Of a DNA stretch of 64,000 nt, positions 19,593 through 49,069 are shown in pieces. The DNA is from an uncultured Rhodopila sp. Its GTDB lineage: Bacteria > Pseudomonadota > Alphaproteobacteria > Acetobacterales > Acetobacteraceae. Location of the stretch: assembly GCA_903851415.1 (NCBI GenBank), contig CAINOE010000105.1, positions 62,001-126,000 on the forward strand, written 5' to 3'. The position numbers were made by a program, and so were the translations under genes. Within the stretch, counting starts at the first letter, position 1, and every line of letters begins with the position of its first letter. A model generated the notes under the pieces. It ran no database searches. It saw only the letters and a program-made list of their open reading frames with translations, and was not told the DNA's origin.

Positions 19593-21041
19593 CTACAATC
19601 GAATGTGGATACCCAGTATCACCCTATTACGCTCATAGTCATAAATCGGCTGATTCGAATTGACGTTTGCGAAGTCATATTCCAGCCTGATTCCAGCCCG
19701 TTCGGTAAGATAATAGGTTGCGGACATTGTGATTTGCGATATCTTGTCGTCTCGTGACCCGACTGTGTAGTTTACGTTGCTGAGCGATGCTGTTGCATTA
19801 AAATTGATCCGCCTGGTGTAGTCATAGGTTACCGCCGCGGAAATCGTATCGGTCTTGTTTATCGATCCGGTGGATCCGGATAATATGGTGTTCGGCGTCA
19901 ATGCCTGCGCGGCCTGGAGGGAGATGACCAGATCCTTCGTCGGCGTCCAGGCAACCCGACCGCCAAACGTGCCGCCTGAGAGCTGGCTGCTTCCGCTTGC
20001 ACCCGACCCGAATTCCACGATCTGGTAGCCGCCGAAGATCTCCCCGCGGAACAAACCCAGGTGGTCCGATCCAACGCCGCCGGTCACGGTATATCCAGTG
20101 GCGGGAACGCCTTGCTGGTAGTCATATTGAGTGACGGTCGGTTCAATGAACACATAATCGTCGGACAGGAACCGCAGTCCCCCGCGGGCATGCGCGGAAT
20201 ACTGGATCAGGTCGCGGCCGCTTTGCGACACGGTCCCACCGGCGGTCGTCTGGGCATTGTTGTAATGATACGCCTGGAAACCGCCGCCGGCTGACACGAA
20301 GGCATTGTTGAAACTCTTGTCCAACAGCAGCGAGCTCGAATAGGTCATATAACTGATCGGCTCGATATAGACCCCCGTGGCGCCGCCGCCCGTGCCGGTT
20401 GCGCTGACGGCGCTGCCCTGGTCATAACGGTGCGCCACTTCGCCCTGGTACGTCAGCGAGAGGTCACGCTCGATCTCATAGACATGCTTCAGATCGGCGG
20501 CACCGGTGAAGGTATCCGCGCCGCTGACGTCCACGGGTGTCGATATATCGCCGGTCAGAGACAAGGTGGTGTTATGGATGCCGGTGTCGCGTTTCAGCGT
20601 CACCCCGGGCTGCACGTCGAACCCCCAACTGGCCTTCGGATTGGTTCTCGAATTGAACAGGTTGTCGTCGTAGGAGGTGCCAATCGTCATTTCGGGCAGG
20701 ATGATCCAGTCGCCCGCGGTGATTCCCAGGTTCTTCTGTTCGCTAATCGCAAAGGGATCGCTATTCCGCACCTTGGCCTTGTCAACTTCCGTCTTGATCT
20801 CGTCAACGGACGGGGCGGACGTGGCGGACTGCGCGTAGGCAGCCGGCGCGCCGCGCTCAAGCAGCAAAAGGGCCACGGCAGGAAGCAGCAGATGTTGTCG
20901 AAGATCATACACAGGCAATGCACCATACTGTCGCGGGACCGGCCGATCCGCGTTTCCGCAGCGCCGCCCACCGACGCTTCTCACAAGTATGTTATACCGC
21001 ACTGAGAACGATAGCAAATCCTGTTTATCAGATGGACGCAA
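19593..21041 (-). CDS. Outer-membrane beta-barrel protein of the exopolysaccharide cluster
   Basis: Up to 482 residues; a signal-like segment (LLLPAVALLLLERGAPAAYAQ) lies about 50 residues in, so the true start may be the GTG at 20912. The mature part has alternating hydrophobic beta strands, many aromatic residues, and ends with RNRVILGIHIRL, a typical barrel C-terminus. It belongs with BBP2-like barrels often found at the head of exopolysaccharide operons, probably assisting secretion. Three bases separate it from the priming transferase gene. It is the promoter-proximal gene of the cluster. Confidence 0.78.
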   Translation of the reverse strand: MRPSDKQDLLSFSVRYNILVRSVGGRRCGNADRPVPRQYGALPVYDLRQHLLLPAVALLLLERGAPAAYAQSATSAPSVDEIKTEVDKAKVRNSDPFAISEQKNLGITAGDWIILPEMTIGTSYDDNLFNSRTNPKASWGFDVQPGVTLKRDTGIHNTTLSLTGDISTPVDVSGADTFTGAADLKHVYEIERDLSLTYQGEVAHRYDQGSAVSATGTGGGATGVYIEPISYMTYSSSLLLDKSFNNAFVSAGGGFQAYHYNNAQTTAGGTVSQSGRDLIQYSAHARGGLRFLSDDYVFIEPTVTQYDYQQGVPATGYTVTGGVGSDHLGLFRGEIFGGYQIVEFGSGASGSSQLSGGTFGGRVAWTPTKDLVISLQAAQALTPNTILSGSTGSINKTDTISAAVTYDYTRRINFNATASLSNVNYTVGSRDDKISQITMSATYYLTERAGIRLEYDFANVNSNQPIYDYERNRVILGIHIRL

Positions 21042-24877: not shown

Positions 24878-24963
24878 CTGACTGACAAATCCCGCCCGCC
24901 CGTTAAGGTTTGGTTAACCTGCCCGGCCGATACTCCGCCTCCTTGGCAGACGAGAGTAGCGGC

Positions 24964-27432
24964 ATGGACAGTATGATCGACAGCCTCGCCCCGGCGGGGA
25001 CACGGCGGGACGAGGCGTGCGTGCTGCACGTCGGCTGCGGCGCCTACAGCCGAACCAAACTGCCGCCGGTGTTTCAGGACCCGGTGTGGCATGAGATCCG
25101 GCTGGACATCGACCCGGGGGTCCGGCCCGACATCGTCGCCAGCATCACCGACATGGCGGCCGTCGACGATGCCGCCGTGGATGCGGTCTATTCGTCGCAC
25201 AACATCGAGCATCTGTATGCGCACGAAGTGCCCGTGGCTCTGCGCGAGATGCGCCGCGTGCTGAAGCCGGGCGGCTTCCTGTTCGTCACCTTGCCCGATC
25301 TGCAGGAGGTTGCCCGCCGGGTGGCCGAGGACAGGCTGGACGACCCGCTCTACCTGTCGCCAATGGGGCCGATAGCGCCGCTTGATATCTTCTATGGTCA
25401 CCGGCCGTCGCTGGCGGCCGGCAATACCTTCATGGCGCACCGGACCGGCTTCACCCGGGGAACGCTGGCCCGGGCCTTGACCGAGGCCGGGTTCGCCGCC
25501 GTGCTGGTGCAGCGCGCTCTGTCCGCCTTCGGCCTGGCCGCCGTCGCGTTCAGGAACAGGCCGGGGGATACGCAACTGGCCGACGCGCAGGCCCGGATGC
25601 TTCCCGAGGGCGATGGTCCCGTAATCCTGTTCGCGGCGCCCGCCGCGGCCGACGGGAAGCTGGCCGAGGCCATCGGCCACCATAAGGCCGGCAACGCTGG
25701 CGAGGCGGAAGAGCTGTACCGCGCCGTCCTGGCCGCAACCCCGGACAATGCCATGGCCAGTTACAACCTGGGCCTGCTCTGCTTCTCTCAGGGTCGGCTG
25801 CAGGAGGCCGTCGATGCCTACCGCGACGCCATCGCGGCGCGATCCGACTGCGTGGAGGCGCATATCAACCTCGGAACCGCGCTGCTGGCGCTCGGGCGGC
25901 CGGAGGAGGCGGTGGTCTGGTTCAAGCGCGCCATCGCGCTGCGTCCGGATGACGCCATGGCGATCTCCAATCTCGGCAAGGCGCTGCAGGACATGGGCCG
26001 CACCGATGACGCGATGGCCGCGTATCGCGCCGCCCTCGGCCACCAGCCGGACAATGCCGCCGCCACGCTCAATCTCGGCTCCGCCCTGCTGGATCGTCAG
26101 GACTGGGACGAAGCCGCTTCGGTGACCCGGCGCGCCATCGCGTTGCAGCCGGACAACGCCATGGCGCACGCCAACCTGGGCACGGCGCTGGCGCGCCTCG
26201 GACAATACGAGGAGGCGCTGGCGGCATGCCGGCAGGCCATCGCGCTGCGGCCCGCGGACAGGACGGTGCTGGCGTCGCTGGGCGGCGCGATGGCCGATCT
26301 GGGGGCGTTGCGGGAGGCGGAGGACGTGTGCCGCGAGGCGATAGCGGCGGACCAGGCGCTTCCGGCGGCCCACTTCAACCTCAGCCACGCGCTGAAGGCG
26401 GTGAACCGGCTGGAGGACGCGGAGCACGCCGCGCGCCAGGCCTTGGCGTTGCGGCCGGACTCGCCGGAGTATCATTTCCATCTCGCGCATCTCCTGCTGC
26501 TGCAAGGCGAGCTTGAGGCCGGCTGGGCGGAATATGACTGGCGATGGAAACTGCCGGATTTCGCCTGGATGACCGCCGTTCACGGGCCGTTCGCGCAGCC
26601 TTGCTGGCGCGGCGAGGACATCGCCGGCAAGACGATCCTGATCCACACCGAGCAGGGTCTCGGCGACATCATCCTGTTCGCCCGCTATCTGCCGCTGGTC
26701 GTGGCCAAAGCCGGCCGGGTGATCGTCGCGGCCTGCCCGGCCATGCACCGGCTGCTGCGGACGATCGACGGGATCGCCGTTGTTTCGATCGAAGAGGTTC
26801 CGCTGCCGGCGTTCGACGTCTACTGCCCGCTGCTGAGCCTGCCGCGCGCCTTTGCGACAAGGCTTGGCACGGTTCCCGCGGATGTGCCGTATCTGCGGGC
26901 CGAACCGGCCGCGCGGGCGCGCTGGCGACAGCGCTTCAGCAGCGAGACAATGCGCGCCGGCATCGTCTGGGCCGGCAATCCCGCGACGAAGGGCGATCGC
27001 TTCCGGTCTCCCGGGTTTGCCAGCGTTGAACCGCTTTTCTCGGTTCCCGGCGTCGATTTCATCGTGCTTCAGGTCGGCCCGGGCCGCGCCGGCTGCGATG
27101 GTCGCGCCTGGCCTCCGCATGCCCGGGACTTCGGCGGCGAGGTCGCCGATATGGCGGACACGGCGGCGGTCATGGCGAATTTGGATCTGGTGATCAGCTC
27201 CTGCACCGCGTCGCTGCATCTGGCGGGCGCGCTGGGTGTGCGAACCTGGGCGATGATCCCGTTTGCGCCCTATTTCCCGTGGCTTCTGGAGTCCGAGACG
27301 ACGTCCTGGTACCCGACGATGCGGCTGTACAGGCAGGCGCAGCCCGGGCAGGATTGGTCCGGTGTGGTTGACCGGATCGCCGGGGATCTGGCGGCCCTGG
27401 CGGGGTCATGGCCGGGGAACGGGCGGCAGTAG
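24964..27432 (+). CDS. Methyltransferase-TPR-glycosyltransferase fusion protein
   Basis: An 822-residue three-part protein. Residues about 10-215 look like a SAM-dependent methyltransferase (VLHVGCGAYSRTKLPP, then SSHNIEHLYAHEVPVALREM and VLKPGGFLFVTLPDL). Residues about 235-515 hold some eight TPR units of the AIALRPDDAMAISNLGKAL style. The C-terminal 270 residues, opening with KTILIHTEQGLGDIILFARY and ending SSCTASLHLAGALGVRTWAM, match the glycosyltransferase-9-like domain common behind TPR arrays. It converges with an O-GlcNAc-transferase-like gene; both could modify the octad-repeat protein. ATG 24964 chosen; a longer start at 24910 is possible. Confidence 0.82.
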   Translation: MDSMIDSLAPAGTRRDEACVLHVGCGAYSRTKLPPVFQDPVWHEIRLDIDPGVRPDIVASITDMAAVDDAAVDAVYSSHNIEHLYAHEVPVALREMRRVLKPGGFLFVTLPDLQEVARRVAEDRLDDPLYLSPMGPIAPLDIFYGHRPSLAAGNTFMAHRTGFTRGTLARALTEAGFAAVLVQRALSAFGLAAVAFRNRPGDTQLADAQARMLPEGDGPVILFAAPAAADGKLAEAIGHHKAGNAGEAEELYRAVLAATPDNAMASYNLGLLCFSQGRLQEAVDAYRDAIAARSDCVEAHINLGTALLALGRPEEAVVWFKRAIALRPDDAMAISNLGKALQDMGRTDDAMAAYRAALGHQPDNAAATLNLGSALLDRQDWDEAASVTRRAIALQPDNAMAHANLGTALARLGQYEEALAACRQAIALRPADRTVLASLGGAMADLGALREAEDVCREAIAADQALPAAHFNLSHALKAVNRLEDAEHAARQALALRPDSPEYHFHLAHLLLLQGELEAGWAEYDWRWKLPDFAWMTAVHGPFAQPCWRGEDIAGKTILIHTEQGLGDIILFARYLPLVVAKAGRVIVAACPAMHRLLRTIDGIAVVSIEEVPLPAFDVYCPLLSLPRAFATRLGTVPADVPYLRAEPAARARWRQRFSSETMRAGIVWAGNPATKGDRFRSPGFASVEPLFSVPGVDFIVLQVGPGRAGCDGRAWPPHARDFGGEVADMADTAAVMANLDLVISSCTASLHLAGALGVRTWAMIPFAPYFPWLLESETTSWYPTMRLYRQAQPGQDWSGVVDRIAGDLAALAGSWPGNGRQ

Positions 27433-27461
27433 GCTTTTCGCCCCCGGAAGAACGAGCCGGC

Positions 27462-29390
27462 TCAGCGGTCGGCCGTTACTTTGTCGCTCCGTTTCAGGTG
27501 CCCGGACACGCCTTGTGCCAGCGTGCCGGGCTTGGCGATGGAAACAAGCAAATCCTCGTAGGAGGCGGTGAAGTCTTCGATATTGCCGATCGTCCGTCGC
27601 CAGTTCTCCAGATTGAAGATGCTTTTGTAAGCGGTATAGGCGTGGTTGTCAGCCGCGAGCGAGACGGCGAAGTCAATATATGCCTGCAACGACGTGGCGA
27701 TGCCGGCGGTCGCCCCGATGGCGGTGAGAAGGCTCGCGGCCATGCGCGATGCGAACGCCTGGCCGGCCAGGGTCACCAAAGGCAGGCCCATGCGAATCGC
27801 GTCGCTGGCAATCGTTCCTGCATTGTACGGGAACGTGTCGAGAAATACGTCCGCCAGGCTGAGGCGCGCCATATACTCGTCCGGGCCGACGCGCGGCGCG
27901 AAGACGATCCGGCCGGGATCGATGCCGAGCCCGGCGGCGCGCTTGAGCATGTTCGCGCGCGCCCATTCATTGTCGCTCACCAGCCAGAGGATCGCATTTT
28001 CGGATCGCCGCAGAATCTCCATCCAGGCGGCAAAGATGTTTTCCGTGGTCTTGTAATGATTGGAGAAGCAGCAGAAGACGAATTTGCCGTCGGGCAGTCC
28101 GGCGGCGGCGCGCGTCATCGCCGGGCCGATGGTCCGCTTGCCGTCATTCGCCTGGTAGTTTCCCTCGATATAAAGCGGCGTTGGCTGATAGGCGTGCGCC
28201 AGGCGCGGCGGCACGACAATCCGGTCGCAAAACATGTAGTCGAGTTCCGGCAACGGGACCGGACCCACGAACCCGAGATAGGTTGCCTGCACGGGCGCCG
28301 GCCTGGAGCGCAGGAGCTGCGGCCGCACGCCGGAGGTCAGGCCGTTCAGGTCGATCAGGATATCGATTTCGTGGCGGCGGATCAGCCGCGCGGCCTCCTC
28401 GTCGGACAACTGCCTGATGCGTTCGAAATGGTCGAACGATTGGATGACGCGCGCGCGGATGGCGCTGCCGTCCTCGGGGCTCGAGCAATAGCCGTAGACT
28501 TCGAAGCGCGTGCGGTCATGCCGTTCAAAGAGTTCGGCGATCAGGTAGCTCATGGCATGACTGCAGAAATCGGACGAGAGATAGCCAACCCGGATGCGGT
28601 CATGGCAGTAGCCCCAGGGCGGGCACAGGGGAACCGGAACGGGCGCGGTCTTTCGCGCTATCCAGTCCTGTCCTGCCCGAAGTTGCGCGGCGATATCGTC
28701 CGTCAACGCGAGCGTTGTCATGGACCCGGCATGACGCAACTGATCCTCCGCCGTCAGCCCCGCAATATCGTCGCGGATGATCGGCCATGCGCACATCTTC
28801 TGCCGAAGGTGCATCCAGTGCTGCACGACATCCGGCTGCTTCGGGTCGATTGCCAGGCTGAAACGCAACTCCCGCTCCGCCGCGTCGAACCGGCCAACCT
28901 GTTCGAGCAGGCGGGCGCGGTTGTTGACAAGGATCAGGCGCACCTCGTCGGGTTGCAGCGCCCGTTCCCAGACGCGAAGGGCGGCATCGGTCTGGCCGAT
29001 GGATTCAAGCACGGTCCCGAGGTTTGCCGCGGCGGGGTAGAAGTCCGGCCGGAGCAGAAGCGCGTTCTGGTAGGCAACGATCGCGTTTGTCTTGTCATCC
29101 GCCTTGGACAATGAGACGCCAAGGTTGAACCAGGCGGCGTGCAGTTCGTTAGACCCGTGCCGTTGGCCGGCGATCCAGTCCCGATACAGGCAAATAGCAG
29201 CCTGTCCGCCCTGCGTTTGATTGGCCCGCTCGATCGCGGCGATGATTTGGACAAGCGGAACGGTGCTCAGCCGGTCCCGGACATCAGCGCTGCCGCCGTC
29301 ACCGGGTGGTGGCGCCATGGTATAGTCATCCAGTAGCTGCGCCAGCCAGGCGTCCGTGCCGTTCACTGCCGTGCATTCTGCTGTCGTCAT
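27462..29390 (-). CDS. SPINDLY/OGT-type O-linked N-acetylglucosaminyltransferase-like protein
   Basis: A 642-residue protein. TPR-like repeats occupy about residues 80-190 (AWFNLGVSLSKADDKTNAIV, FYPAAANLGTVLESIGQTDA). The GT41 catalytic region begins around 265 with RIRVGYLSSDFCSHAMSYLI. It continues with IDILIDLNGLTSGVRPQLL, APVQATYLGFVGP, FCCFSNHYKTTENIFAAWM, and DVFLDTFPYNAGTIASDAIR. These are the signatures of bacterial O-GlcNAc or O-fucose transferases that modify Ser/Thr of proteins. The gene follows the Ser/Thr-rich repeat-protein gene on the same strand, 132 bases behind it, which suggests its substrate. Confidence 0.88.
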   Translation of the reverse strand: MTTAECTAVNGTDAWLAQLLDDYTMAPPPGDGGSADVRDRLSTVPLVQIIAAIERANQTQGGQAAICLYRDWIAGQRHGSNELHAAWFNLGVSLSKADDKTNAIVAYQNALLLRPDFYPAAANLGTVLESIGQTDAALRVWERALQPDEVRLILVNNRARLLEQVGRFDAAERELRFSLAIDPKQPDVVQHWMHLRQKMCAWPIIRDDIAGLTAEDQLRHAGSMTTLALTDDIAAQLRAGQDWIARKTAPVPVPLCPPWGYCHDRIRVGYLSSDFCSHAMSYLIAELFERHDRTRFEVYGYCSSPEDGSAIRARVIQSFDHFERIRQLSDEEAARLIRRHEIDILIDLNGLTSGVRPQLLRSRPAPVQATYLGFVGPVPLPELDYMFCDRIVVPPRLAHAYQPTPLYIEGNYQANDGKRTIGPAMTRAAAGLPDGKFVFCCFSNHYKTTENIFAAWMEILRRSENAILWLVSDNEWARANMLKRAAGLGIDPGRIVFAPRVGPDEYMARLSLADVFLDTFPYNAGTIASDAIRMGLPLVTLAGQAFASRMAASLLTAIGATAGIATSLQAYIDFAVSLAADNHAYTAYKSIFNLENWRRTIGNIEDFTASYEDLLVSIAKPGTLAQGVSGHLKRSDKVTADR

Positions 29391-29475
29391 GATTAAGTAT
29401 TCGCTCGCCGGAGAAAGTTGATGTTTTAGAAGCGGTGTAAGCGTCTGGCGGCCTGCCGATCGGCCTGCGGAACGA

Positions 29476-29508
29476 GGTCACGCACCAGGGGCGGGCTGGT
29501 GCGTGACC
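29476..29508 (-). terminator. Strong hairpin between repeat-protein and OGT-like genes
   Basis: A perfect 13-bp stem (29476-29488 with 29496-29508, arm GGTCACGCACCAG) with a seven-base loop GGGCGGG starts 15 bases after the repeat-protein stop. There is no T-run on the minus strand after it, so it may be a weak terminator or a 3'-end stabiliser. Either would let the repeat protein be made in excess of the transferase. Confidence 0.6.
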
Positions 29509-29522
29509 GGGATAACGTTCCG

Positions 29523-31388
29523 TCAGCCGAAGATGGCGGTCTGTTCGGCGGGCGTCATGTGTGAGATCTGCGCGCCGGTAAAGGCGGTTTCGTTCGTCCA
29601 CCCGCCGGCGACCGCAGCGGCCAGGTTGGCGGTGCTGAGCGCCGGTATTTGGGTTGACGTGAATGCCTGGATCTCCGCCGTCGTGAGGGAAATGATCTCC
29701 GCCGAGGTCAGCCCGGCGATGGCGGTCGAGCTGATGGCGGCGAATTGCGTCGTGGAAAGGCCGGACAGGCTCTGCGTCGCGGCGGCAATCTCGGCCGAGC
29801 TGAGGCCCGCGATGCCGGACGATGAAAGTGCGACGAATTGGAGCTGCGAGAAACCGCCGATGGTTTGGCTGTTCAGCGCCGCCACCTGGGCGGAGCTGAG
29901 TGCGGCAATGTCGGCGGTGGACAGGCCGGAGACGCCGGCCGATGTGGACAAAGCGGCCACCTGCGCGGTGGACAGCGCGGTGACCTGCGCCGTGCCGAGG
30001 GCGGAAACCTGAGCCGATGTCAGAACGGCGGCCTCGGTGTTGGAAACCCCGGCGATGCCGGCGGTGGACAGCGCGGCGATCTGCCCGCTGGACAGCCCGG
30101 TGACCGCGCCGGAGACCAGCGCCGCGATCTGCGCGGACCCCAGCGCCGCAATGTCCGCGGTGGACAGCCCCGAGATCGCGGCCGACGCGGCGACGGTGCC
30201 GAGCGCCGCAGTGGACAGCGCCTTCACCTGAGCCGAACCCAGCGACGACACCTGCCCCGAGGTCAGCCCCGCCGCACCGGTGCCGAGGGCTGCGATCTGC
30301 GCGGTGGTCAGCGAAGACACCTCCCCGGTGGAAAGGCCGCTGACCTGGGCGGAGGTCAGCGCGGCAACCACCGCGGTGGACAGGCCGCCGATTTGCAAAG
30401 ACGTGAGGTTGCCGATTTGCGCCGCCACCTCGCCGGAACTCAGCCCGGCCGCGGCTGTCTTGGAGATCGCACCGAACTGCGTGGCGGAGAACCCGTCCAC
30501 GGCCAGGCTGTTCAACGCCGCCACCTGCGCCGAACTCAGCGCCGCGATATCGGCGCTGGACAGGCCCGACACCGCGGCCGACGTGGACAATACGGCAACC
30601 TGCGCGGCGGACAGCGCGGTGACCTGCGCGGTGCCCAAAGCGGAAACCTGGGCCGATGTCAGCACCGCCGCTTCGGCGACGGACACCCCGGCGAGGCCGG
30701 CGGTGGACAGCGCGGCGATCTGCGCACTGGACAGCCCGGTGACCGCGCCGGAGACCAGCGCCGCAATCTGCGCGGACCCCAGTGCCGCGATATCAGCGGT
30801 GGACAGCCCCGACACCGCGGCCGAAGCCGCGACGGTGCCGAGCGCCGCAGTGGACAGCGCCTTGACCTGGGCCGAACCCAGCGCCGACACCTGCCCCGAG
30901 GTCAGCCCGGCCGCACCCGTGCCCAGCGCGGCGATCTGCGCGGTGGTCAGCGAAGACACCTCTCCGGTGGACAGGCCGCTGACCTGGGCGGAGGTCAGCG
31001 CGGCAACCACCGCGGTGGACAGGCCGCCGATTTGCAAAGAGGTGAGGTTGCCGATTTGCGCCGCCACCTCGCCGGAACTCAGCCCGGCCGCGGCTGTCCT
31101 GGAGATCGCACCGAACTGGGTGCCGCCCAACCCGTCCACCGCCAGGCTGTTCAGCGCCGCCACCTGCGCGGAACTCAGCGCCGCGATGTCGGCGCTGGAC
31201 AGGCCGGACACCGCGGCCGATGTGGACAACACAGCAACCTGGCCGGTCGTCAGGGCGGTGACCTGCGCGGTGCCGAAGGCGGAGACCTGGGCCGAACTCA
31301 AATTCGCAATAATGCTTGTGCTCAGGGCCGCGACCGCGCCGGTCGACATGGCGGCGATTTGAGCGGTGGTCAGCGTAATAGTCGTCAT
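29523..31388 (-). CDS. Octapeptide-repeat protein, Ser/Thr/Ala-rich, three super-repeats
   Basis: A 621-residue protein made almost wholly of octads with consensus L-[ST]-[ST]-A-[QE]-[VI]-[AS]-[AG], roughly 70 units. Above this lies a super-repeat of exactly 639 bases (213 residues). Equivalent points occur at 29902, 30541 and 31180. The two N-terminal copies are nearly identical; the C-terminal copy has diverged. Cysteine is absent and aromatic residues are scarce. No signal peptide is seen; the end reads FTGAQISHMTPAEQTAIFG. A regular Leu every eight residues suggests a solenoid or fibre. AGGGGA precedes ATG 31388. Function unknown; a glycosylated surface protein is one guess. Confidence 0.85.
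   Translation of the reverse strand: MTTITLTTAQIAAMSTGAVAALSTSIIANLSSAQVSAFGTAQVTALTTGQVAVLSTSAAVSGLSSADIAALSSAQVAALNSLAVDGLGGTQFGAISRTAAAGLSSGEVAAQIGNLTSLQIGGLSTAVVAALTSAQVSGLSTGEVSSLTTAQIAALGTGAAGLTSGQVSALGSAQVKALSTAALGTVAASAAVSGLSTADIAALGSAQIAALVSGAVTGLSSAQIAALSTAGLAGVSVAEAAVLTSAQVSALGTAQVTALSAAQVAVLSTSAAVSGLSSADIAALSSAQVAALNSLAVDGFSATQFGAISKTAAAGLSSGEVAAQIGNLTSLQIGGLSTAVVAALTSAQVSGLSTGEVSSLTTAQIAALGTGAAGLTSGQVSSLGSAQVKALSTAALGTVAASAAISGLSTADIAALGSAQIAALVSGAVTGLSSGQIAALSTAGIAGVSNTEAAVLTSAQVSALGTAQVTALSTAQVAALSTSAGVSGLSTADIAALSSAQVAALNSQTIGGFSQLQFVALSSSGIAGLSSAEIAAATQSLSGLSTTQFAAISSTAIAGLTSAEIISLTTAEIQAFTSTQIPALSTANLAAAVAGGWTNETAFTGAQISHMTPAEQTAIFG
29583..31388 (-). repeat. Tandem 639-bp super-repeat within the octad gene
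   Basis: The DNA repeats with a period of 639 bases over about 2.8 copies (for example the GCxGCxATxTCGGCG segment at 29902, 30541 and 31180). The two copies from about 30110 to 31388 are very similar, including many synonymous positions, so the last duplication or conversion is recent. The copy below about 29900 has drifted. Confidence 0.85.
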
Positions 31389-47365: not shown

Positions 47366-49069
47366 GTGCGTATCCTGCTCATTCATCCAAACTACCATTC
47401 CGGTGGCGCCGAGATTGCCGGCAATTGGCCGCCAGCCTGGGCCGCGTATCTGGCCGGTTCGTTGAAAGCCGCGGGCTTCAGCGATCTGCGGTTCATCGAC
47501 GCGATGACCAACAACATCTCGGACGACGACCTGCGGGACATCATCAAGGCCGAGAAGCCCGATCTCGTCGGCTGCACCTCGATCACGCCGTCGATCTACA
47601 AGGCGGAGCGGGTGCTGCAGATCGCCAAGGAGGAGCACCCGAACACGGTGACCGTCCTCGGCGGCATCCATGCCACGTTCATGTACCAGCAGGTGCTGAC
47701 CGAAGCCCCGTGGGTCGATACCATCGTCCGCGGCGAGGGCGAGGAGATCCTGATCAACCTCGTCCGCCTGATCGACCAGGGCCGCTGGCCGGCCGATCGG
47801 CATGAGGTCAAGGGGCTGGCGTTTACGGAATCGCTGGCGGACGGCGCGCAGATCGTCGCCACCCCGGCGGCGCCCACCATCAAGGACCTGGACTCGATCG
47901 AAGCCGATTGGGGCATCCTGGAGTGGGATAAATACCGCTACATCCCGCTGAACTGCCGCGTCGCGATCCCGAACATGGCGCGTGGCTGTCCGTTCACTTG
48001 CTCCTTCTGCTCGCAATGGAAGTTCTGGCGCGACTACCGCTTCCGCGACCCGAAGAAGGTCGTGGACGAGATCGAGACGCTGTACAAGAAATACGATATC
48101 GGCTTCTTCATCCTCGCCGACGAGGAACCGACGATCAACCGCAAGAAGTTCATCCAGTTCTGCGAGGAACTGATCGCGCGCGGGCTGAACGAGAAGGTTC
48201 TGTGGGGCATCAACACCCGCGTCACCGACATCCTGCGGGACGAGGAAATCCTGCCGCTTTACCGCAAGGCCGGCCTGATCCACGTGTCGCTCGGCACCGA
48301 GGCCGCGGCGCAGATGAAGCTCGACCTGTTTAATAAAGAAACGAAGATTTCCGACAACCGCAAGGCGATCCAGTTGCTGCGCAATGCCGGCATCGTCGTC
48401 GAAGCCCAGTTCATCGTCGGTCTTGAGAATGAAACCGCCGAGACGCTGGAAGAAACCTACCGCATGGCGGTGGAGTGGAAGCCCGATCTGGCGAACTGGT
48501 CGATGTATACGCCGTGGCCGTTCACCTCCCTGTTCCAGGAGATGAAGGACAGCGTAGAAATTTTCGACTTCGAGAAGTATAATTTCGTTACGCCGATCAT
48601 GAAGCCGGAGGCGATGGACCGGAGCGAGTTGCTTGATCGGGTGATGAACAACTATCGGCGCTTTTACTTCAAGAAGGCGCTGTTCTCCTATCCGTGGGCT
48701 GGCAAGGGCGCGCGGCGGCGTTACCTGCTGGGCTGCCTGAAAGCCTTCCTCAAGTCCGGTTTCGAACGCAAATTCTACGACCTCGGCAAGGTCGGCTATT
48801 GGGGACCGCAGTCGAAGAAGCGGGTCAACTTCCACTTCGACGAGGCCCGCAAGTTGACCGAGGCGGCGACCGGAGACTGGGAAGCCGCGGCGGACAAGTC
48901 GCGCAAGGCCAGGCCGGCGCTTCCGGTGTCGGCGGTGGCGGCCTGCGGCGGCGGTCGCGACCAGATGGATGCGATTGACGCCAGCGGGGTGAAGCCTCCG
49001 GCGGTGATGGCGTGCGGTGGCGGCACCGAGCAGATGGCGGAGACCGATGAAGCAGGCGCCGCGGATTGA
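47366..49069 (+). CDS. bchE: Anaerobic Mg-protoporphyrin IX monomethyl ester cyclase BchE
   Basis: A 567-residue cobalamin-binding radical SAM enzyme that forms the isocyclic ring of bacteriochlorophyll without oxygen. The N-terminal B12-like domain opens [20 protein letters not shown]. The radical SAM cysteines are C208, C212 and C215 in [29 protein letters not shown] and the aromatic [10 protein letters not shown] are BchE-like. The tail holds two ACGGGxxQM motifs (526-534 and 549-557). GTG start with GGGAGG nine bases upstream. It overlaps bchJ by 23 bases. An FNR-type box lies upstream. Confidence 0.93.

Follow-up and report, generated by a model that had tools for sequence, protein, structure and literature searches.

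The dedicated glycosylation of an exported protein in the cytoplasm is already a known kind of arrangement, with FlmG and flagellin or HMW1C and HMW1 as examples. Similarly, in the serine-rich repeat adhesins a repeat protein is O-glycosylated in the cytoplasm and then passes through a dedicated exporter; these adhesins differ from the system considered here in being Gram-positive, in using SecA2/Y2 export and other enzymes, and in having disordered rather than helical repeats. HMW1C is related to glycosyltransferase family 41 (GT41), its system is N-linked and uses two-partner secretion, and its substrate is unrelated to the one discussed below. To our knowledge, bacterial GT41 enzymes are mostly without known protein substrates, and we know of no dedicated neighbouring substrate for XcOGT, TtOGT, eukaryotic OGT or SPINDLY, which resemble the enzyme studied here in combining a GT41 fold with N-terminal tetratricopeptide repeats (TPRs). 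Here we analysed a 64,000-nucleotide stretch of DNA from an uncultured Rhodopila sp. (contig CAINOE010000105.1), referred to as the window, in which an octad-repeat gene, ALTTAQ, is followed by a gene for an OGT-like TPR–GT41 enzyme. We consider it likely that this locus encodes a dedicated O-glycoprotein system, in which the GT41 enzyme glycosylates position 3 of the ALTTAQ octads in the cytoplasm and the product then undergoes type I export.

As a dedicated glycosyltransferase for a large secreted adhesin, HMW1C of Haemophilus influenzae is similar to the proposed enzyme, according to two reports (PMC2877744, PMC3012730). The window enzyme is unlike HMW1C in that it fails the NCBIfam model for HMW1C-type N-glucosyltransferases (NF049992), scoring 12.9 bits against a cut-off of 1000. 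FlmG of Caulobacter crescentus offers another parallel, as a TPR-guided glycosyltransferase that O-glycosylates its substrate in the cytoplasm before export; it differs in its flagellin substrate and in flagellar export, and the main text of that report (PMC7591256) never uses the terms GT41, methyltransferase or type I secretion. The OGT of T. terrenum reportedly showed no activity on protein substrates in vitro (PMC4683255). Among the listed titles and abstract starts of open-licence papers, no description of the gene set as a whole was found, nor of its single elements, namely the family of the substrate, a GT41 paired with type I secretion, the methyltransferase and the octad site; in the open-licence papers searched, the words ALTTAQ and HeliScrew and the tested sequence motifs were likewise not found.

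The window lies on contig C105 of a 7.09 Mb genome. A preliminary description of this DNA had named three neighbouring genes, a 621-residue repeat protein, an OGT-like enzyme behind it and a converging 822-residue fusion, and all three are present, intact and uninterrupted. The ALTTAQ protein (621 aa; 29523..31388, minus strand), the proposed glycosylated and secreted substrate, matched PF20080 in 21 stretches with 282.5 bits (gathering cut-off, 26.4 bits), and all 16 PF20080 matches found in the window genome fall in the single frame of this gene. On the same strand, 132 bp downstream, lies the gene for the TPR–GT41 enzyme (642 aa; 27462..29390), the proposed O-glycosyltransferase for octad position 3, which matched PF13844 with 220 bits (cut-off, 25) in two stretches that cover both catalytic lobes. 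A profile of this enzyme gave 392 bits for human-type OGT (several TPR stretches summed), 339 for XcOGT, 304 for TtOGT and 267 for SPINDLY, the matches differing in length; thus, the label "SPINDLY-type" of the preliminary description finds no specific support. Residues H278 and K447, which align with OGT and which we take to be its active-site histidine and UDP-binding lysine, were invariant in an alignment of eight orthologs. Another uncultured Rhodopila metagenome-assembled genome (MAG; L118) contains these three genes, identically arranged, and its GT41 enzyme is 81% identical to that of the window.

The association of the two genes was examined in 100 genomes of the window's family, Acetobacteraceae, the window included; GT41 enzymes scoring at least 480 bits were classed as close orthologs, and those scoring at least 270 bits as close or intermediate. 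ALTTAQ was present in 20 of these genomes and was adjacent to GT41 in 18 of the 20, namely 15 determined from fetched flanks, the window, G015, and G014 by way of a named record (L119) with identical contig coordinates. The exceptions were G063, whose GT41 genes are on a contig other than that of the listed ALTTAQ matches, and G007, in which ALTTAQ gave a single weak match. A close GT41 ortholog was found in 14 of the 20 ALTTAQ-positive and none of the 80 ALTTAQ-negative genomes; for close or intermediate enzymes, the counts were 19 of 20 and 4 of 80, respectively (Fisher p 1e-15). Chance adjacency should be rare, because the window genome has GT41 matches in three frames per 7.09 Mb.

These observations were replicated in a second, distant alphaproteobacterial family, with a more distant GT41 type. 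ALTTAQ occurred in 52 of its 297 genomes. Of the 51 that were then searched, 36 contained GT41 at E 1e-60; these enzymes were of the intermediate type, and the best scored 344 bits. Thirty of the 33 genomes with GT41 at 280 bits or more had listed ALTTAQ positions, and in 23 of these 30 the two genes were on one contig, at most 7 kb apart. In a phylum-wide sample, ALTTAQ (E 1e-6) was found in 17 of 397 genomes, or 16 without the window; in 8 of the 16, GT41 lay within 10 kb of a listed ALTTAQ match, and in 2 there was no GT41 at E 1e-20. Five of 241 genomes in a class sample passed a stricter ALTTAQ cut-off, which the window itself fails, and three of the five had GT41 at a distance of about 4 kb or less.

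For the reverse test, we used named loci from a scan with a GT41 alignment, the best 80 of 166; all counts out of 80 loci refer to these. ALTTAQ was near GT41 in 62 of the 80; the distance was at most 2.5 kb in 59 and at most 300 bp in 32. Of the 28 loci whose flanks reached 8 kb or more in both directions, 25 contained ALTTAQ. The remaining 18 loci lacked ALTTAQ in the fetched stretch; when 12 of these genomes were searched whole, all 12 contained it. The ALTTAQ-bearing loci come from Acetobacteraceae, other Alphaproteobacteria (including Rhodobacter capsulatus, Rhodovulum and Niveispirillum), Massilia, Duganella, Pelobacter and Geobacteraceae MAGs, and in loci of Thiospirillum and Methylococcaceae GT41 was present and ALTTAQ was not found in the fetched stretch. 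The expectation that an OGT-like gene would stand beside octad genes more often than by chance was thus strongly confirmed (18 of 20 family genomes, 62 of 80 loci).

The sequence of the repeat also varies with the enzyme. Octads were counted by one fixed pattern (a hydrophobic residue, then S/T/G/D/N/E), on which the position-3 counts depend, and only genes with at least 12 octads were kept. Paralogs without linkage to GT41, and genes whose GT41 is more distant, were excluded, and three groups were compared: 62 genes beside a close GT41, from 64 candidates (the 62 ALTTAQ loci of the reverse test, the window and R. sphaeroides), many with a second GT41 nearby; 16 hand-picked genes linked to an intermediate GT41; and 11 genes that represent 11 of the 18 ALTTAQ-bearing genomes with neither type of GT41. 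GT41 was scored as absent at E 1e-60 in one family and at 1e-20 elsewhere, except that G130, with five weaker GT41 genes (123–153 bits), was kept in the GT41-less group. Position 3 was Ser/Thr in a median of 81% of octads beside close GT41 (60–98%), 67% beside intermediate GT41 (25–83%) and 30% without either (7–42%), the last range not overlapping that of the first group. Relative to the GT41-less group, the p values were 1.5e-7 (close) and 7e-4 (intermediate), which are optimistic because the compared sequences share ancestry. Position 4 shifted less (p 0.0025 and 0.013), positions 2 and 7 showed no significant shift with GT41, and position 8 gave p 0.96 for the close type. Position 2 was Ser/Thr in most octads of all groups; in the GT41-less genes, position 4 was charged in a median of 45% of octads and position 3 was proline in 0–60%.

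Within one family, position 3 was Ser/Thr in 72% of octads in 10 genes beside GT41 and in 37% in 9 GT41-less genes (p 3e-4), and 13 further entries of this family, with GT41 at least 2 kb away or on another contig, gave 43–71%. In one genome, the linked gene (L113) had 77% and an unlinked paralog (L114) 27%. Position 3 was thus low in L114, and also in L223 (19%), in GT41-bearing genomes, and it was high (64%) in L109, which has no adjacent GT41 and has one elsewhere in its genome.

The ALTTAQ protein of the window contains 74 octads by the fixed pattern, with the consensus L-S/T-S/T-A-Q-I-A-A, and its composition is 27% Ser/Thr and 3.5% charged residues, with no cysteine. An AlphaFold2 model, built from four sequences, was all helical, with a mean predicted local distance difference test score (pLDDT) of 81. 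Each octad formed one short helix; position 3 was helical in 86% of the 74 octads and position 2 in 26%, and 93% of 71 helices were preceded by Ser, Thr, Asp, Asn or Gly. Because of these helicity counts and pre-helix residues, the model suggests that each helix is capped by position 2 and begins with position 3. Each octad would contribute about 1.5 helix turns plus a turn, and the octads would stack as a tightly wound superhelix, probably forming a stiff rod.

The ALTTAQ sequence also matched HeliScrew4 (PDB 9zem) in a phmmer search (E 4.9e-10 over 109 residues). The abstract of a December 2025 preprint (PMC12822642) describes an experimentally confirmed "tightly wound alpha-helical screw" obtained from random repeats and reported as new, and 9zem is probably this screw, although the name HeliScrew4 does not appear in that abstract. 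The description "tightly wound" fits the ALTTAQ model; the window protein differs in being natural and five times longer, and the likeness is one of sequence. Structure searches with the model returned no close match, and no 9zem, among the matches listed from a library that extends to April 2026 and may lack 9zem. Octads also occur within a larger, otherwise different protein (L116:8568-11990), in a 2.0 Mb genome without GT41 at E 1e-20.

With respect to export, no N-terminal signal sequence was apparent in the ALTTAQ protein by eye, without a predictor. Its C-terminus, ...AFTGAQISHMTPAEQTAIFG, is of the octad type, as in most relatives: 35 of 42 complete C-termini, counted by eye, were of this type, commonly resembling ...MTTAQVNALFA, and the other seven, from Massilia, Duganella, Pelobacter and Geobacteraceae (L180, L184, L188, L189, L191, L192, L194), were unrelated to octads. 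RTX repeats are typical, though not universal, for type I secretion substrates, and none of the five Pfam matches of the ALTTAQ protein (E up to 1) was to an RTX family. Genes for an HlyB-type ATP-binding cassette (ABC) protein or for HlyD were found in 37 of the 80 loci, with both in 33. The nearest family of the linked ABC protein is the type I family HlyB, below the curated cut-off; HlyD scored above its own. A second GT41 gene was present in 32 loci, and a Sel1-repeat protein in 7, lying between GT41 and ALTTAQ in L119, L122, L129, L130 and L148. The HlyD and methyltransferase reading frames of R. capsulatus overlap by 4 bp in L171 and are 34 bp apart in L173, and those of R. sphaeroides are separated by 22 bp.

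The whole set is found on plasmid pA of R. sphaeroides 2.4.1 (L270), where ALTTAQ (1561 aa), GT41, ABC, HlyD and methyltransferase genes are consecutive. The ALTTAQ protein is WP_011836189.1, the GT41 enzyme WP_011836188.1, the ABC protein WP_011836187.1 and the methyltransferase WP_011836185.1. The annotation of this ALTTAQ gene (L270:8952-13637) reads "ICE nucleation protein", and in another strain the gene is labelled a heme-utilization exoprotein; both annotations look wrong. Immediately after the set are kdsA, two sulfotransferase genes and dTDP-rhamnose genes (L270:19995-26224). A gammaproteobacterial plasmid, from Pseudomonas asturiensis (L272), carries ALTTAQ in three open reading frames (ORFs) together with GT41 and TolC–HlyD–ABC genes; the three-way split of the ALTTAQ region (L272:4542-11833) is possibly a sequencing error in the repeats.

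In the window genome, two genes elsewhere matched the linked ABC protein strongly (558 bits on contig C96 and 534 on C19; next, 234), and each is followed by HlyD. In the C96 cluster (L208:9000-19999), the ABC–HlyD pair is succeeded by a Sel1 protein and then by GT2/GT4 glycosyltransferases. Over about 410–500 residues, this Sel1 protein shares 44–45% identity with its ALTTAQ-linked counterparts in L122, L129 and L148, and the C96 ABC protein is 40–42% identical to six linked ABC proteins, which are 46–74% identical among themselves. Because a Sel1 protein of the ALTTAQ-linked type follows its ABC–HlyD pair, the unlinked C96 cluster is, from these sequence comparisons, the best candidate exporter of the window ALTTAQ protein.

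UDP-xylose synthase genes were present in 7 of the 32 loci with a second GT41 and in none of the 48 without, a difference to which the longer flanks of the former (15.0 vs 11.3 kb) may add slightly. The best PDB match of the L074 synthase was UDP-glucuronate decarboxylase 1 (E 2e-124). These counts hint that the second GT41 may use UDP-xylose. Genes for this UDP-glucuronate decarboxylase, or UDP-xylose synthase (L113:2-832, L134:18761-19804, L074:5652-6686), were noted near ALTTAQ loci with a second or intermediate GT41.

The third gene of the window locus (24964..27432, plus strand) converges on the other two and encodes 822 aa from its ATG, or 840 aa from an alternative TTG at 24910. Of the "methyltransferase-TPR-glycosyltransferase" architecture previously assigned to it, the first two parts were borne out, by a class I S-adenosylmethionine methyltransferase domain (24964..25650, plus strand; PF08241, 43.8 bits) followed by seven TPR stretches. 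The glycosyltransferase label was not: the C-terminal 299 residues (26533..27429, plus strand) are unclassified, with no Pfam match, a best PDB match of E 0.27 and an AlphaFold model pLDDT of 34. Homologs of this domain, often annotated as TPR proteins, occur in 100 plasmid records, and in one relative the domain is joined to GT41. An 837-aa homolog of the entire fusion adjoins ALTTAQ and GT41 in L118. Methyltransferase homologs (at least 100 bits) were found in 29 of the 80 loci; outside the fusion, the methyltransferase either stands alone close to GT41 and HlyD genes or is fused with GT41 (L123, L187). A Duganella GT41 protein of about 1070 aa (L181:8836-12045) contains GT2 and a C-terminal methyltransferase; its counterpart of about 1070 aa in a second Duganella species (L192:8956-12162) also has the C-terminal methyltransferase, with a GT2 match under the cut-off. 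ORFs of about 2300–3800 residues with 2-4 GT41 matches each (G420:C92:27164-35746, G392:C29:51250-57528, G406:C141, G427:C1, G431:C483) were noted in one family of the same phylum; ALTTAQ likewise occurs in genomes of this family.

From the genes, their linkage and co-occurrence, the position-3 signature, the predicted fold and the linked secretion genes, we infer glycosylation itself, its site, a methyl step, export and a surface location. In the proposed mechanism, the TPR–GT41 enzyme would bind the ALTTAQ rod in the cytoplasm via its TPRs and transfer a sugar to Ser/Thr at position 3, where the helix of each octad begins, with the Ser/Thr of position 2 serving as a structural helix cap. The methyltransferase, free or fused to glycosyltransferases, probably would cap or modify the glycan, and the ALTTAQ protein, which has no recognisable Sec signal, would then be exported by an HlyB/HlyD-type (type I) system, probably via its C-terminus. 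The preliminary description had proposed a system that makes and decorates a fibrous or surface protein. Linkage and the position-3 signature argue well for decoration and the secretion linkage argues moderately for a surface location, while a fibrous nature is a possibility suggested by repeat length and predicted fold.

Several observations weigh against a dedicated glycosylation and export system. Four ALTTAQ-negative family genomes (G020, G036, G067, G090) have an intermediate GT41, and 11 ALTTAQ genes are in genomes without such a GT41; because of these genes, glycosylation cannot be a requirement of the repeat. The position-3 signature is less tidy for the intermediate type, with low values in L065, L073, L074 and L236, and position 8 also shifts weakly with this type (p 0.036). 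Position 3 is high without an adjacent GT41 in L054/L055 (G063, 88%) and L062 (62%), with GT41 elsewhere in these genomes, and linked and unlinked ALTTAQ genes of G269 are alike at this position; the shared ancestry behind the p values counts here as well. Type I secretion genes were not found within the window, nor in the fetched flanks of 43 of the 80 loci, many of which are cut by contig ends. Finally, the predicted TM score (pTM) of the ALTTAQ model was only 0.55.

Some of these points would fit another explanation, that GT41 acts on other targets, such as flagellin, other surface proteins or polysaccharide, and adjoins ALTTAQ merely through shared, exchangeable surface-polysaccharide islands. 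Sugar-nucleotide and glycosyltransferase genes do lie near several loci, ALTTAQ occurs without this GT41, and the four ALTTAQ-negative genomes have their intermediate enzyme. We nevertheless regard this explanation as improbable, because no protein family other than GT41 and ALTTAQ is common to more than four of the family-level loci, a close GT41 was found in none of the 80 ALTTAQ-negative genomes tested, each of the 12 genomes searched for want of a local ALTTAQ has one, and position-3 Ser/Thr tracks GT41.

The same signature bears on the idea that GT41 serves ALTTAQ chiefly as a TPR chaperone in type I export, the Ser/Thr richness of the repeat being purely structural. Ser/Thr at position 2 in most octads of all groups is what helix caps would predict, and the TPRs could bind the substrate as those of FlmG bind flagellins, according to the FlmG report (PMC7591256). 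However, position 3 changes with GT41 and position 2 does not, the histidine and lysine that align with the OGT active site are invariant among eight orthologs, and GT2 and methyltransferase domains are fused to GT41 in Duganella L181; a mainly chaperoning role therefore seems rather more doubtful still. We give very little credence to ALTTAQ being a scaffold inside the cell or, in line with the R. sphaeroides annotation, an ice-nucleation protein. Ice-nucleation proteins are generally beta-solenoids, whereas the predicted fold is all helical; the Pfam matches of the window's ALTTAQ protein included no ice-nucleation family, secretion genes are linked, and the annotation in another strain, although a name only, is that of an exoprotein. 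The dedicated O-glycoprotein system thus remains the reading that we favour.

Outside the locus, the window contains a BBP2_2 beta-barrel porin gene (19593-21041), upstream of the module, and an ORF (47366-49069) that presumably resembles a B12-binding radical-SAM protein of the BchE kind. Together with the Rhodopila relatives, this likeness suggests a phototrophic host.

In many bacteria, among them Rhodobacter sphaeroides, a phototroph used in laboratories, a long octad-repeat protein has its own GT41 enzyme, a methyltransferase and often a type I exporter as neighbours, and the set looks like an undescribed system that makes and exports a sugar-coated surface fibre. We would give about even chances to its more specific form, namely a widespread, so far undescribed kind of glycoprotein on bacterial surfaces: a natural alpha-helical screw in which a dedicated GT41 glycosylates the same residue of every octad ahead of type I secretion, so that sugars wind around the rod in a regular spiral. 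One subtype, in which UDP-xylose synthase accompanies a second GT41, may be a protein O-xylosyltransferase. A large subgroup of GT41 enzymes thereby gains a predicted substrate and a predicted site. If the proposal is true, OGT-like chemistry would be coupled to type I secretion, a function would be suggested for the ALTTAQ repeat, and the helical screw that the abstract of PMC12822642 recently reported as new would have a natural counterpart.

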